54,265 bases of DNA from assembly GCA_938038785.1 (NCBI GenBank), contig CALHTB010000001.1:1-54265 (forward strand). Direction: 5' to 3'. The notes under the pieces are model-generated. The model was not told the DNA's origin. It searched no databases and saw nothing but the letters and a program-made list of their open reading frames with translations. The position numbers and the translations under genes are program-made. This document shows, in pieces, positions 5,438 through 50,217 of the stretch. The DNA comes from an uncultured Acidimicrobiales bacterium (GTDB lineage: Bacteria; Actinomycetota; Acidimicrobiia; Acidimicrobiales; SHLQ01). The first letter of the stretch is position 1. Every line of letters starts with the position of its first letter.

Positions 5438-6682
5438 TCAGCGGTGAAGTGCGACAACAACCTCGGCATGGCTGGTGTCATGAAACGCGTCGATGACCTG
5501 CACCGAATCGAGCGTGTACCCCTCACTGGCTAGCAGTTGCACATCTCGGCCGAGCGAGCCGGTGTCGCATGAAACCAACACAAATCGATCCGCGTTACTG
5601 GCCATGAGGGCAGCGACGCCTTTTCGGCCCAAACCGGCACGGGCGGGGTCGGCGATGACGGTGTCTGCAGGAAAGGCCATCCACGATTCAACCTCTTCGC
5701 ACAAGATGACCGCATCGGTGAACTCGGCCAAGTTGACGCGAGCGTCGGCGATGGCGCTGGCAGATTGTTCGACCGCAACGACCGATTGAGCACTCGCTCC
5801 AACCGAACCAGCGAACAGCCCAACACCCGCATAGGCATCGACGAGGTCTCTGTTGGCAAGGTCGCCGGCAGCGAAGGTGACCGCATCGACCAGCGCTGAC
5901 GCGACGTGGGGGCCGGCCTGAAAGAACGATGCTGCGGACACCTGCCAGTCACGGCCACCGGCATGCTCGATGAGGTGAGTCTTGGCACCGTTCGCCTTCG
6001 ACAGGATTGCCAGTTCGCCCACCGGCTCAACGGCTGAGGCGTCGACGGCTGCGGGATCACCGTCGACCATGATGAAGGCATCTTTGGTGTGCTCGCTAAC
6101 TCGAAGCACGGCTTCACTTCCGGCACCTGACCGGAACCGTACGTTGGTCAGCATTGCTTCGAGCTGTGGGTGCACGACGAGACAACTATCGGGCACGACG
6201 GTGTCGTGGCTTGCGCGTCGGCGATACCCGGCGCGGTCGCCGCTGATCGCAAGCCGCACCGTCGTGCGATATCTGTCCGGGATTGAGGCATGCACCGCCG
6301 CTGAACCTGCGGCGATCGCATCGTCGACGAGCGCGTCGTCGAGTCGGCCAATCCGGACGAGCGAGTCCCGTACTACGTGCCTCTTGATTTCTTGTTGGGT
6401 GTCGGCGGTGGCATGAGCGAGGTCGCAGCCTCCACAACCTGCATGGTGTGTGGGGCACGCCGGTTCACGCCGGCCCGGAGCTGGCTCGATGACTTCAACA
6501 ACCTGGCCTCGAGCGAACGACTTCTTCTGGGTCTTCAACTGCACCCGGACCGTCTCGCCGGCCAACCCTCCGTCGCAAAACACCACCCGGCCGTCGTTGT
6601 CACGGCCAACGGCAGCGCCGCCATTCGCGGGTCGGTCAAGCGTGAGTTCGATGGGTTCGGAGGGGTTCGAAGCCGACGTCAT
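5438..6682 (-). CDS. RNA m5U methyltransferase, RumA/RlmD/TrmA family
   Basis: 414 residues. It has an N-terminal TRAM-like beta domain (about 1-60), then a cysteine-rich stretch with CGGC (CPTHHAGCGGC) matching the [4Fe-4S] site of RlmD-type enzymes. A SAM-binding DAYAGVGLFAG loop and a C-terminal catalytic VSCDTGSLGRD motif follow. These enzymes methylate C5 of uridine in 23S rRNA or tRNA. I chose the ATG at 6682 (MTSASNPSEP) because the frame can be extended upstream only by running across the divergent rpe gene, where it has no family resemblance. The gap to rpe is 48 bp, so the two genes share a divergent promoter region. Substrate base unknown. Confidence 0.87.
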   Translation of the reverse strand: MTSASNPSEPIELTLDRPANGGAAVGRDNDGRVVFCDGGLAGETVRVQLKTQKKSFARGQVVEVIEPAPGRREPACPTHHAGCGGCDLAHATADTQQEIKRHVVRDSLVRIGRLDDALVDDAIAAGSAAVHASIPDRYRTTVRLAISGDRAGYRRRASHDTVVPDSCLVVHPQLEAMLTNVRFRSGAGSEAVLRVSEHTKDAFIMVDGDPAAVDASAVEPVGELAILSKANGAKTHLIEHAGGRDWQVSAASFFQAGPHVASALVDAVTFAAGDLANRDLVDAYAGVGLFAGSVGASAQSVVAVEQSASAIADARVNLAEFTDAVILCEEVESWMAFPADTVIADPARAGLGRKGVAALMASNADRFVLVSCDTGSLGRDVQLLASEGYTLDSVQVIDAFHDTSHAEVVVALHR

Positions 6683-6730
6683 GGTCGCAGGATACGGGAC
6701 TTGCGCAGCGCACGCTCTAGGGTCCGTTCC

Positions 6731-7402
6731 ATGCCACGTCCGATCGAAATCGTGCCCTCTGTTCTGCCCGCCAACTTCGCTGATCTCGGTGAGGAATGTC
6801 GACGCCTCGGAGATGCTGGTGTCGACCGAATTCAATGGGATGTCATGGACGGCAACTTCGTCCCCAACCTCACCTTTGGTCCCGACGTCATTGCGGCCTG
6901 TAGGCCGTACACCGACGTTCGTTTCGAGGCTCATCTGATGGTGGCCGACCCCGACCTCATGGCCAAGCAGTACATCGACGCCGGATGTGACCTGCTGATC
7001 GTGCACGCCGAAAGCGCCAAGCACTTGCATCGCACGCTGGCCAACATCGCCGACCTCGGTGGCAATGCTGCGGTAGCGCTGAACCCGTCGACGCCAATCA
7101 CCGAAATCGAGCACGTGCTCGATCTGGTCGAGATGGTGCTGATAATGACGGTGAACCCTGGTTTCGGTGGCCAGAAGTACATCAAAACAATGGAACCGAA
7201 GATCGCGGCCTGCCGAGCAATGCTCGATGCCAGTGGCTACGACATCGACCTCGAAGTCGACGGTGGCATCAGTAAGGACACCATCGCCGGAGCAGCAAGC
7301 GCTGGTGCCAACGTCCTCATCTCGGGCAGCGCGTTGTTCCGCTACGAAAGCCTCACCGAAGGAGTAGCCGAACTCCGCGCCCTAGCCGAAGCCGCGAGGT
7401 AA
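6731..7402 (+). CDS. rpe: Ribulose-phosphate 3-epimerase
   Basis: 223 residues of a (beta/alpha)8 barrel that interconverts ribulose-5-phosphate and xylulose-5-phosphate in the pentose phosphate pathway. The family signatures are present in order: IVPSVLPANF, the metal-binding WDVMDGNFVPNLTFGP, HLMV, VNPGFGGQ and the C-terminal EVDGGI with ISGSALF. Length is normal for the family. The ATG at 6731 begins right at MPRPIEIVPS; upstream codons in this frame belong to the antisense of the methyltransferase gene. It is transcribed divergently from the methyltransferase and convergently with clpP. Confidence 0.96.
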   Translation: MPRPIEIVPSVLPANFADLGEECRRLGDAGVDRIQWDVMDGNFVPNLTFGPDVIAACRPYTDVRFEAHLMVADPDLMAKQYIDAGCDLLIVHAESAKHLHRTLANIADLGGNAAVALNPSTPITEIEHVLDLVEMVLIMTVNPGFGGQKYIKTMEPKIAACRAMLDASGYDIDLEVDGGISKDTIAGAASAGANVLISGSALFRYESLTEGVAELRALAEAAR

Positions 7403-7418
7403 TTCCCGGGCTTTATTT

Positions 7419-7753
7419 CCCGGAGCTTCGCTCCTCCAGCGGTCGCACCGTCGCTTCGCTTTGGGTGCTCGGCTGCTGCGCCCGAGGCGGAGCCTGGTCG
7501 TTCGTCCCTCACTCCCGCACGCGGCAAGCAGTCCTCAATGCGTATAAGCGACGGACCCCGGGAACCCCTGAACCATTGTTCACTGCGACAGCGGAGCTGC
7601 TCACAGCTAAACGCGAGAGCCTGTATACGCACCGCCGAATCGCCAGCTCCCAAGGAGGGAGGGACGAGCGACGGAAAGGCGCCTCGGGCGTAGCAGCCGA
7701 GCATCGAGGAGCGCAGCGACGGATTGCGACAGCTGGAGGAGCGAAGCTCCGGG
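7419..7753. repeat. Long imperfect inverted repeat between rpe and clpP
   Basis: This gene-free stretch (7403-7755, 353 bp) is bounded by a 22-bp perfect inverted repeat (7419-7440 and 7732-7753). The similarity continues inward imperfectly for about 100 bp on each side (to about 7516 and 7650), sharing GCTCGGCTGCTRCGCCCGAGGC. Each tip also forms its own small hairpin (GGAGC-TTC-GCTCC). The right tip ends 2 bp from the clpP stop codon. It could be a bidirectional terminator of repeated origin or a small non-autonomous element. No protein in the ~130-bp centre looks real. Confidence 0.8.
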
Positions 7754-7755
7754 AG

Positions 7756-8355
7756 TTAGATGTCGCCTCGCGACGTGATGACTTTGTCGATGATGCCGTA
7801 TTCCTTGGCTTCTTCGGCGGTAAACCAGCGGTCACGATCGGAGTCGGCTTCGATGGTCTCGACGCTTTGGCCGGTGTGTTCGGCAATGAGTTCTTGCATC
7901 ATGCGCTTGGTCTGGCCCATCTGTTCTGCCTGGATGGCGATGTCGGTGGCCTGACCGCGGACGCCACCGAGTGGCTGGTGCATCATGACGCGGGCGTGAG
8001 GCAGTGCGTAACGCTTGCCCTTAGCGCCTGCGCCGAGGAGGAATTGTCCCATCGATGCGCCGAGGCCCATGCAGAGGGTGCCGACGTCGGGGGCTACGAA
8101 TTGCATGGTGTCGTAGATGGCCATGCCTGCGGTAACCGAGCCACCTGGAGAGTTGATGTAGAGCCAAATGTCCTTCTCGGGGTCTTGGCTCTCGAGGTGG
8201 AGCATCTGCGCGCTGAGGAAGTTGGCGATCTCATCATTGACATCGGTGCCAAGAAAGATGATTCGGTCTTTCAACAAGCGGTTGTAGATGTCCATGCGCG
8301 ACACGTCTTCGGTCAGCGATGCTGCGTACGAAGTGCCGGGAAGTTCGATGCCCAT
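7756..8355 (-). CDS. clpP: ATP-dependent Clp protease proteolytic subunit
   Basis: 199 residues from the chosen ATG ([13 protein letters not shown]), which has AGGAG 6 nt upstream. An upstream in-frame start adds 13 residues without a good ribosome site. ClpP forms the double-heptamer serine protease chamber fed by ClpX or ClpC. The catalytic triad is visible: Ser101 in GASMGQ, His126 in VMMHQPLGG and Asp175 in DRDRWF. The handle and oxyanion segments ([10 protein letters not shown]) are normal. Only one clpP is in the window and clpX is not adjacent, whereas many actinobacteria have clpP1-clpP2 pairs followed by clpX. Confidence 0.96.
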
Positions 8356-11460: not shown

Positions 11461-11612
11461 TATCGACTCGGCCCTGACGGGCTTCCCCGAACCCGAGTTT
11501 CATCTCTCCGAGCTGAAACATCGCATTGAGAAAGCGCTCGAGGGGAGCGGAGCTCGCGTAGCGACCATGACGGCTTCCGCGGATCTCGACCGGAAGTGTC
11601 GAGAACAAAACA

Positions 11613-11645: not shown

Positions 11646-11660
11646 TGTTGTCGTGTTTTG

Positions 11661-11734
11661 CGCGCCCCCAGGGAGTCGAACCCCAAACCTTCCCAGAAAG
11701 CACCGGGTGCTCTATCCAATTGAGCTATGAGCGC
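11661..11734 (-). tRNA. tRNA-Arg-like gene with an irregular anticodon arm
   Basis: 74 nt. The body matches a bacterial tRNA-Arg: acceptor GCGCTCA against GGGGCGC (last pair A-G mismatched), D arm GCTCAATTGGATAGAGC with A20, T loop TTCGACT and discriminator G, as in several tRNA-Arg(TCT). The anticodon region does not fit. A 5-bp stem (CCCGG/CTGGG, with one G-U) leaves only a 6-nt loop, TGCTTT. Forcing a 7-nt loop gives two stem mismatches and no U33. TCT occurs nearby but out of register. It may be a degenerate tRNA gene, or there may be a base error. No CCA is encoded. Confidence 0.6.
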
Positions 11735-48417: not shown

Positions 48418-50217
48418 TCAGATTTTGCAGACGAGGTCGCTGGCCGGGGTGTGATCGACTGTCTTGGTGGTCCACCACCCGTGCGGGCCGTCGTTGCTCA
48501 ACGCAAACGCATTGGCACGGGTCGGGTCGCCGGCTACGGCAATAAGCAGCTGCGCCGGGTTGCCAACGACTGGCACCAGACGATTCGGGTCATCGGATTC
48601 GGCGAACACCGTCGGCAGCTCACCCGCCTCGACAAGCTCGGCCAGCGTGCGCCTGCCCGCAGTGAGGTTGCTCCACTCACCAATGAACTTCTCGAACGTG
48701 CTCGCTGGCAACCGGGCGTGTTCGAACAACGCAGCTTGCACCTTGACCTTCGACCACCCTGCGCTAGCGAACAGGCGCGCAATCAATGGCGAGATAACTA
48801 GGAGCGGCTGAAACTGATTGTGGCCAAGCCCATAGACGTGGGTGAGATCCCACGCGGCGGTTCGAACGATCCCGTTGGCGAGGTACGGCACGACCTCCTC
48901 AGGGGTCGAACCAAACACGCTGCCGATAATCGTGCCGCTGTTCATCCGGGCCATCGAAACGGCATCTCCGCTCGGCACTTCCGGCCGAGGTCCTGTGTTC
49001 ACGCTCGGCACTTCCGGCCGAGGACCTGCTGCGCTCAGGTCTTCAGCGAGCGTGGTCCACCCGATCTCGGCAAGACACTCCATGTCCTCAGCGAGCACCG
49101 GCCGAGTCGGATTTCCGAACGTCGCCTTGTCATGAGCATCAGCGGTAAAGCCAAACACGTTTCGTAGATACAGCCGGAGCCACCGACCAACCGACGTGTT
49201 GGCATGGGCTCCCTCACGCATCGCACCAGGACCATGGTTGAACCCGAGCGCTGCGGTGTTTGGCCCGTCGAGAACCACGATTGCGTCAGCTCCGGTGGTG
49301 TTGCCCGAGTGTTCGGCTCCATAGGACGGGTCGGCCAGAATTTCGGTTATGGCGATCAGCACCGGAAGGTGCTCGGGGCGACAGCCCGCCATCACGCCGT
49401 TCACTGCGATCGACCAGATCGTGAGGTCTCGTCCCGAAGATGACGCAACTCCGAGTGTCTTCCACGGGTCATGGCCAGAGTTGGTAATGAACGCCTCGAC
49501 CCGGTCTTGGGTCGGCGGGATGAACGGGTGGCCGTCGGTCCAACCCTTCTCGACGAAATGCGCGTGCACGTCGTCGATCGTTCCGCTCACGACGACATCG
49601 AGGGCGGTTGGCTCGGCAGCCCCGCCTGGGAGTTCAGCGCCGTCAGCGAGCTCGGGTTCTACTGTCAGCCCATGGACGATGTGGTCGACGGTTTCGTTCA
49701 CAAAGTTGGACGTCATCTGTTCGACCGACTGCGCGTCGACATGGCCAACGGTTACCGCAATCGGAATGTTGTCGAACCCATGACCGCGAGCCGTCGCTGC
49801 AGCTTGGCCTTGAAAGCCATCACACACGATCGACACCGATGGAATCCCCACCGATTCGGCGGCAAGTGCTGCCCGCATCACGGCGGGCGTACAGCTACCT
49901 CAACAACCCATCCCCGACACCACCGCGTCGACACCACGATTGCGCAGGTCTGCGGGCAGTGCTTCGATGCGCTCCTTCTCGTCGGCACCGTGCAGGTTGC
50001 CGAACTCCTCGTACCCAACGATCTCGATCGCCGGGTAGCGGCGCCGCAGCTCGGCTTCGAGAACCGGGAACAGTTCGTCACCTCGGAAGAGGTAGTCCCA
50101 CAGAAACGCCACGGTCGCCGTATCGAGGTCAACTCGGGGCGACCGCTGTCGTTGCTGAATGCCCCGCGGACTGCTGGGCCACACAACCTCATATCGACCT
50201 GGCTTGCTCGTTCCCAC
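48418..50217 (-). CDS. UGSC-family selenoprotein fused to a MAGCRPE-domain protein (in-frame TGA = Sec106)
   Basis: 599 residues when the TGA at 49902-49900 is read as selenocysteine. Upstream (GTG start, 105 residues) ends in VVSGMGC; then TGA; then GSCTPAVMRAALAAESVGIPSV in the same frame. The junction is U-G-S-C, the motif that names the UGSC family of (seleno)proteins. A hairpin follows the TGA. Residues from about 215 on (HFVEKGWTDGHPFIPPT, NGVMAGCRPEHLPVL, GRWLRLYLRNVFGF) form a second conserved-looking domain of unknown function, fused here. Ordinary gene finding would give a 105-residue stub and a 487-residue ORF from GTG 49881. Redox role inferred from Sec/Cys pairing. Confidence 0.85.
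49871..49888 (-). promoter_or_regulatory. SECIS-like hairpin after the selenocysteine codon
   Basis: On the coding strand, 11 nt after the TGA, GCCCGC pairs perfectly with GCGGGC around loop CGTGAT. GCT further upstream can pair with AGC below, leaving a small bulge. The loop begins 17 nt after the TGA and has G at its second position, within the spacing and loop rules described for bacterial SECIS elements. Function not tested. Confidence 0.65.

Follow-up and report, generated by a model that had tools for sequence, protein, structure and literature searches.

Among the selenoproteins reported from the Global Ocean Sampling data, proteins of the UGSC type are one of the most abundant families, with 255 selenocysteine (Sec) forms versus 21 cysteine (Cys) forms, and a likely Trx-like fold was suggested for them (PMC2398784). 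A UGSC/Unknown_1 fusion was reported in 2008 by Zhang and Gladyshev (PMC2398784, Figure S1A). UGSC-containing proteins are listed in PMC13188914 and PMC9312934, in the available passages of which we saw no function assigned to them; the former, a 2026 review, describes the biological functions of nearly all selenoproteins it lists as largely uncharacterised. PrdB and GrdB are amino-acid reductases of anaerobes such as clostridia (PMC13188914). Here we describe a UGSC gene in a stretch of 54,265 nucleotides (nt) from an uncultured Acidimicrobiales bacterium (contig CALHTB010000001.1; the whole stretch is called the window). The gene is seemingly split by a stop codon, and its sequence indicates that it most likely encodes one Sec-carrying protein of 599 residues, in which the UGSC domain is fused to the product of what, in the relatives examined, is its neighbour gene. 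The features of the gene, all on the minus strand, are as follows.

48418..50217, minus strand: fused gene, predicted to encode a selenoprotein of 599 residues; GTG start at 50217, Sec TGA internal, TGA stop at 48420-48418
49900..49902, minus strand: in-frame TGA, predicted to be read as Sec (C-U-G-S-C); same TGA in 39 of 39 relatives examined
49871..49888, minus strand: hairpin resembling a selenocysteine insertion sequence (SECIS), GCCCGC-CGUGAU-GCGGGC, with a 6-bp stem, beginning 11 nt after the TGA; called from invariant fourfold codons and fold energy
49663..50187, minus strand: UGSC domain (PF24696), a Pfam match; beta and alpha elements alternate in the model, where Sec sits between strand 92-98 and helix 103-115 (model numbering)
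48421..49605, minus strand: C-terminal partner domain, ~395 residues; a separate gene beside UGSC in other genomes

A conserved in-frame UGA with an invariant hairpin

The original prediction, made from the letters of the sequence, was that two open stretches in one frame, separated only by TGA at 49902-49900 within C-U-G-S-C, are read through as one UGSC-family gene. Re-reading confirmed the arrangement: the gene has this one internal TGA only, in the context VSGMGC-TGA-GSCTPAV (also written VSGMGC-TGA-GSCTPAVMRAAL), and upstream its frame is closed off by an in-frame TAG (50229-50227). A single scan of contigs in GTDB yielded 43 homologous loci; by their record titles these come from actinobacteria, for the most part Acidimicrobiia or Acidimicrobiales. 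The site was read in 39 of them (the partial loci L055, L058, L059 and L060 were left out); it is TGA in every case, with homology on both sides. Pfam family PF24696 (gathering cut-off 25 bits) matches the upstream half with 26.2 bits, the downstream half with 50.5 and the joined protein with 100 over residues 11-185. The family also matches all 30 aligned members (30/30, E up to 1). The NCBIfam equivalog NF041046 scores 56.4 bits, below its curated cut-off of 125, and for this reason we file the protein under the Pfam domain family only; with that restriction its assignment to the UGSC family holds. No relative was found in the viral contigs searched.

The hairpin was examined at synonymous positions. 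The codon test took codons whose first two bases are common to >=90% of 39 sequences and whose third base is free; the sample was the fused gene and 38 relatives, with L039, which has the TGA and the same stem, left out. The five fourfold codons in the hairpin (ACG, CCC, GCC, GTG and CGG) have an identical third base in 39 of 39 sequences. Among the 38 comparable codons outside codons 0-9 after the TGA the mean third-base identity is 0.55 and the largest 0.87; on either side of the stem, at codons 0 and 9, it is 0.49. The 43 nt of the fused gene's hairpin region fold with -19.7 kcal/mol (z -2.5), and 2 of 200 shuffles were as good. In an alignment of 28 of the 40 sequences the six main-stem pairs are invariant, and 1 of 13 predicted pairs, outside the main stem, changes on both sides; covariation is uninformative because the six main-stem pairs never vary.

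Stand-alone relatives, in which UGSC is a gene of its own, carry at the first position of (U/C)GSC a TGA in 22 of 26 cases and a Cys codon in the other four, in line with the earlier statement that the family has Sec or Cys there. The TGA-type genes have a hairpin of different sequence, typically ACG TCG TGC AGT GTG CAC GAC. In folds read by eye its offset is 11 nt in 18 of 22 genes and 12-13 nt in L092 and L081; for L075 and L082 the best fold lacks the hairpin. Folds of the four Cys-codon genes (L063, L079, L083 and L084), read in the same way, do not show it either.

Selenocysteine machinery of the source genome

Sec insertion machinery had been inferred for this organism, and two things had been named as evidence against the prediction: absence of selB, selC (tRNA-Sec) and selD, or homologues with neither Sec nor Cys at the site that are truly split genes. 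Neither was the case. All three genes were found: tRNA-Sec with 66 bits (the sole one of nine matches above the family cut-off; ARAGORN also calls tRNA-SeC), selB with 285.7 bits and selD with 267.4 bits. For selA there was no match in the source genome, an assembly rated 73% complete; this counts against a selenoprotein. The gene is present in 10 of 10 congeners and in 8 of 8 other genomes of the same family; by comparison of coordinates, all 18 have it upstream of selB at a distance of <=100 nt. The selB contig of the source genome has 3186 bases; its end lies ~80 nt upstream of the gene, amid copies of a repeat described below. Since selA adjoins selB in 18 of 18 relatives and the source selB sits at a contig end, the missing selA is most likely an assembly gap.

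Presence of selA also follows the type of UGSC gene. Among other genomes with UGA-type UGSC 22 of 23 have selA, and among genomes with only non-UGA UGSC 1 of 4 (G037 yes; G158, G192 and G206 no). The hypergeometric chance of this association, calculated by hand with kinship ignored, is ~0.005; G035 and G238, in which the UGSC part is unseen or absent, were left out of the count. The post-TGA part of the protein has long matches (>=290 residues, >=45% identity) in 15 of 58 relatives, all 15 of which have selA; these were matched on the post-TGA part, and the UGSC halves do not enter the count.

Because the UGA is conserved, the hairpin is invariant and tRNA-Sec, selB and selD are present, the fused gene almost certainly encodes a selenoprotein, as far as sequence tests can tell.

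The C-terminal domain is the neighbour gene of stand-alone UGSC

It had also been proposed that the downstream ~390 residues, with MAGCRPEHLP, form a separate domain and that the fusion may be informative about function. The domain is real, with ~395 residues, and the fusion is informative indeed. UGSC was found at 46 places, spread over 29 of the 396 genomes searched in the phylum (a count that omits the two weakest matches, G324 and G251, below the cut-off); 30 loci were fetched, of which 26 are stand-alone. With a profile of the C-terminal domain, all 26 stand-alone loci fetched (L063-L087 and L092) were found to have a partner gene beside UGSC and on its strand. In 24 of them the partner precedes UGSC; the order in L076 and L087 is that of the fusion, with UGSC first. 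The same adjacency was seen in three more loci (L108, L138 and L159). A partner with no UGSC domain detected on its contig was seen in G238, at L126 (G238:C272), where each of two genes has two copies of the partner domain. At L125 (G000:C71) 5750-7782 the source genome also has a UGSC selenoprotein gene of the stand-alone type, immediately preceded by a thioredoxin-like/partner gene.

Other fusions exist: L106/L139 (same order) and L138, L088 and L131 of G241 (with U-D-G-C and U-P-G-C), and L089 of G192. In a tree of 29 partner domains the fused gene and six loci of the 43-locus scan fall into one clade (100/100). The tree needs three changes to account for all nine fusions, with L088 and L089 as long branches, and would still be compatible with a single origin of all of them. 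Very probably, two normally separate subunits have been fused into one chain.

The Cys of the partner MAGC motif is nearly invariant (Leu in L053, Ala in L088). The domain had no Pfam or NCBIfam family beyond chance-level matches and no sequence match in the PDB. Its model has a predicted local distance difference test (pLDDT) score of 84.6 and a predicted template-modelling (pTM) score of 0.88. Foldseek searches with the whole model and with the C-terminal domain gave template-modelling (TM) scores <=0.30; the lowest E, ~8e-4, was for fumarate hydratase with TM 0.14-0.17, which we treated as no match.

Some partners are longer. Six of 16 partner chains inspected (L065, L067, L068, L072, L077 and L081) begin with a thioredoxin-like extension of ~90-140 residues, which holds CETC, CPTC or CATC (a CxxC motif) and a VPT segment. 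One of them, L081, belongs to the pair of the source genome; the fused protein is without the extension. The NCBIfam thioredoxin model matches 3 of 3 extension-bearing partners scanned (E 3.4e-4 to 5.9e-4) and 0 of 5 partners without it, and thioredoxins of the PDB match the extension proteins with E 0.08 and worse. The identity of the fused domain with UGSC's neighbour gene and the thioredoxin-like extension on some partners are new.

Predicted fold of the UGSC domain and a probable kinship with PrdB-like proteins

An AlphaFold2 model was built from alignment A1, which has 30 of the 40 sequences (the fused protein and 29 of 39 relatives); its pLDDT is 82.8 and its pTM 0.85. The Sec, residue 106 of 599, is residue 100 in the model. 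The predicted order is strand 29-34, helix 40-54, strand 59-61, helix 74-87, strand 92-98, Sec100, helix 103-115, strand 121-125, helix 130-139, strand 147-149 and helix 159-179. Thus, from residue 29 on, each of five strands is followed by a helix, in a predicted model that was compared with thioredoxins by this order and not by a fold aligner. The thioredoxin fold has its own order of strands and helices, including an antiparallel hairpin. As modelled, the UGSC domain does not have that order, which disagrees with the 'likely Trx-like fold' suggested in PMC2398784.

In Foldseek searches with the whole model, MccF and 3-dehydroquinate synthase reached a probability of up to 0.99 with TM <=0.30 over 110-190 columns, which we treated as no match. 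By sequence, neither the fused protein nor its profile matched the PDB. LarB-type and similar weak matches (E 0.14) were taken as chance.

Profile comparison suggests a relationship with PrdB-like proteins. When the UGSC profile (30 sequences) was aligned with hhalign to a profile of 11 PrdB-like proteins, the Sec columns coincided, as did a following E-x-x-G-I-P. The score was 27.6 (E 0.0017, probability 15.5%); 100 column-shuffled controls averaged 12.7 and did not exceed 21.6, and one reversed profile scored 14.3. A first comparison with 7 PrdB-like sequences had given E 0.004 and probability 8.4%. With the NCBIfam model for UGSC, one of two PrdB-like proteins is matched at E 0.06 in the region of the Sec. 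One such protein is encoded in the source genome itself (L102, G000:C112), with its UGA at 1879, and reads VPV-UGA-PVC. The PrdB-like proteins of the source and related genomes are UGA-encoded and match TIGR04483 with 151.5 (L102) and 171.9 bits, the cut-off being 300. The UGSC domain bears a weak resemblance to the Sec half of PrdB/GrdB reductases, and we judge kinship with PrdB-like proteins to be probable, though short of proof. We found no sign in Pfam or NCBIfam scans that the partner is PrdA- or GrdE-like.

Gene neighbourhood

Of the seven window neighbours of the fused gene, compared by BLAST with the open reading frames (ORFs) of 41 loci, only one, a generic AMP-binding protein, had matches, and these were in 2 loci. 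No neighbour cluster occurs in more than 4 of 41 loci, the fused gene and overlapping frames aside.

Neighbours were also read in 24 larger loci of stand-alone pairs. A class III CoA-transferase gene (CoA, coenzyme A) adjoins UGSC in three of them, from three families (L129, L147 and L152). BLAST clusters of neighbours include ATP-binding cassette (ABC) transporter ATPases in 6 loci, acyl-CoA dehydrogenases in 6 and MaoC-like proteins in 4; two, two and one members, respectively, were scanned, and several of the genomes are close kin. The ABC members scanned are a branched-chain-type permease-ATPase (L157) and an ATPase with CBS domains (L143), the latter encoded at L143 9786-11063, ~0.4 kb downstream of the UGSC gene. 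ABC ATPases with CBS domains are of the kind found in glycine-betaine transporters, and the L143 protein is a possible lead to the substrate. The stand-alone neighbourhoods fit a catabolic enzyme weakly better than peroxide defence.

Proposed activity and its alternatives

We put forward, tentatively, that the protein may be a Sec reductase of the PrdB-like kind that is driven by thioredoxin, acts on a small organic substrate and has its two subunits in one chain. The hairpin 11 nt past the UGA would recruit SelB and Sec-tRNA, and Sec would enter the UGSC domain, where the predicted beta/alpha fold places it at the N-terminus of a helix, with one Cys before and one after it (C-U-G-S-C). The domain would then play the part that the Sec subunit PrdB or GrdB has in D-proline or glycine reductase: Sec may attack or reduce a bond of a small organic substrate at the interface of the UGSC and partner domains, and the selenylsulfide formed with the Cys of GSC would be reduced by thioredoxin, the presumed electron donor. 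In some genomes a thioredoxin-like domain appears to be supplied by fusion to the partner; here the two usually separate subunits would be joined. The role would presumably be catabolic. A wider claim, on which we are more doubtful still, is that UGSC and its partner could make up a further class of thioredoxin-driven selenocysteine reductases beside the glycine/betaine/sarcosine and D-proline reductases, widespread in presumably aerobic, aquatic actinobacteria and active in CoA-linked catabolism of a small organic substrate, with the fused gene as its one-chain form.

A number of observations weigh against this account. As to Sec itself, the hairpin regions of the source genome's stand-alone UGSC and PrdB-like genes, folded alone, did not surpass shuffled sequences (z -0.35 and +0.68); genome G093 has the UGA form with no selA match and G037 the Cys form with selA; and the fused homologue L089/L132 of G192, a genome with no selA match, has neither Sec nor Cys at the site (DMGTSS). 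As to the kinship with PrdB, the hhalign probability is only 8-15%, column shuffles are a soft control because shuffling destroys helix periodicity, and in Pfam and NCBIfam scans with E up to 0.01 the fused protein had no match to PF07355, TIGR01918 or TIGR04483. As to thioredoxin, the NCBIfam matches of the extensions have ~20 bits versus a curated cut-off of 96.8, and the Pfam matches, each in 2 of 4 extension proteins, are below cut-off as well (Thioredoxin, E 0.1 and 0.18; TraF, E 2.3e-4 and 3.1e-3). Foldseek found no convincing PDB fold match for the C-terminal domain, and the fused gene is without conserved neighbours across the 41 loci compared.

Alternatively, the selenoprotein could have a thiol-disulfide or peroxide-type role of the thioredoxin-like kind, with the partner as an electron relay or scaffold. 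In its favour are the UxxC motif, which is common to thioredoxin-like families (PMC2398784), and the near-invariance of the partner MAGC Cys, but that Cys is replaced in L053 and L088, some partners already carry a thioredoxin-like domain, the modelled strands and helices alternate without thioredoxin's antiparallel hairpin, and certain neighbour genes in other lineages look catabolic. We consider such a role rather unlikely.

A second alternative accepts that Sec is read and has the UGSC half bind a metal or metalloid, or deliver selenium or sulfur to the partner. A C-U-G-S-C site could bind soft metals, no function is assigned to the family and the partner fold is without a match, all of which would leave room for it; yet no metal-handling family occurs among the scanned neighbour genes (a small sample), and the thioredoxin-like domain that some partners carry speaks for redox cycling. 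This makes binding or delivery improbable.

That there is no selenoprotein at all is barely credible: the standard code does break the frame at the TGA and selA was not found, but a split gene, a pseudogene or a sequencing error is at odds with a UGA kept in 39 of 39 relatives from many assemblies together with an invariant hairpin, which rules out the first two; general reassignment of UGA is ruled out because the fused gene itself and two other of the 18 long ORFs of the window (3 of 18) stop at TGA; and tRNA-Sec, selB and selD are all there.

A genome-wide repeat and a tRNA-like gene

The fused gene contains one further feature.

48973..49020, minus strand: two copies of a genome-wide repeat, in frame, in an insertion that none of the other 29 aligned relatives has

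In the source genome the repeat, CGRCCGGAAGTGYCG, was counted 48 times, against 0 for the reversed pattern, and copies frequently lie in twos or threes at 33-84 nt. Copies are also present at window positions 11587-11601 (plus strand) and at G000:C52:3110-3184, the contig end beside selB. At window 11660-11734 (minus strand) ARAGORN calls a tRNA-like gene with an odd two-base anticodon, which is not among the Rfam matches at gathering scores.

Comparison with known systems

With the UGSC family as defined by NF041046 and PF24696 the fused protein shares the domain and the same Sec/Cys position in (U/C)GSC. It differs in sequence: the fused form is a divergent subfamily, 18-26% identical to 24 aligned stand-alone forms.

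With PrdB and GrdB (TIGR04483, TIGR01918, PF07355) it shares Sec-x-x-Cys followed by E-x-x-G-(I/V)-P, and the Sec columns align with those of PrdB-like proteins in the profile comparison; it matches none of these families directly. The PrdB-like protein L102 of the same genome is UGA-encoded like the fused gene, but it is a separate gene of a separate family and is itself below the TIGR04483 cut-off.

The UGSC/Unknown_1 fusion of 2008 is a close precedent, a UGSC protein joined to a conserved domain of unassigned function, and Unknown_1 is presumably the C-terminal domain of the fused gene. It differs in that the available passages of that paper give no linkage to a partner gene and suggest a Trx-like fold; nor did we find a report of partner-gene linkage or of a link to PrdB in the parts of the UGSC literature at hand. 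The linkage of UGSC and partner at every stand-alone locus fetched, the fusion and the thioredoxin-like domains together point to a candidate two-subunit enzyme open to expression and assay, and the partner linkage gives a first lead on what the widespread and uncharacterised UGSC family does.
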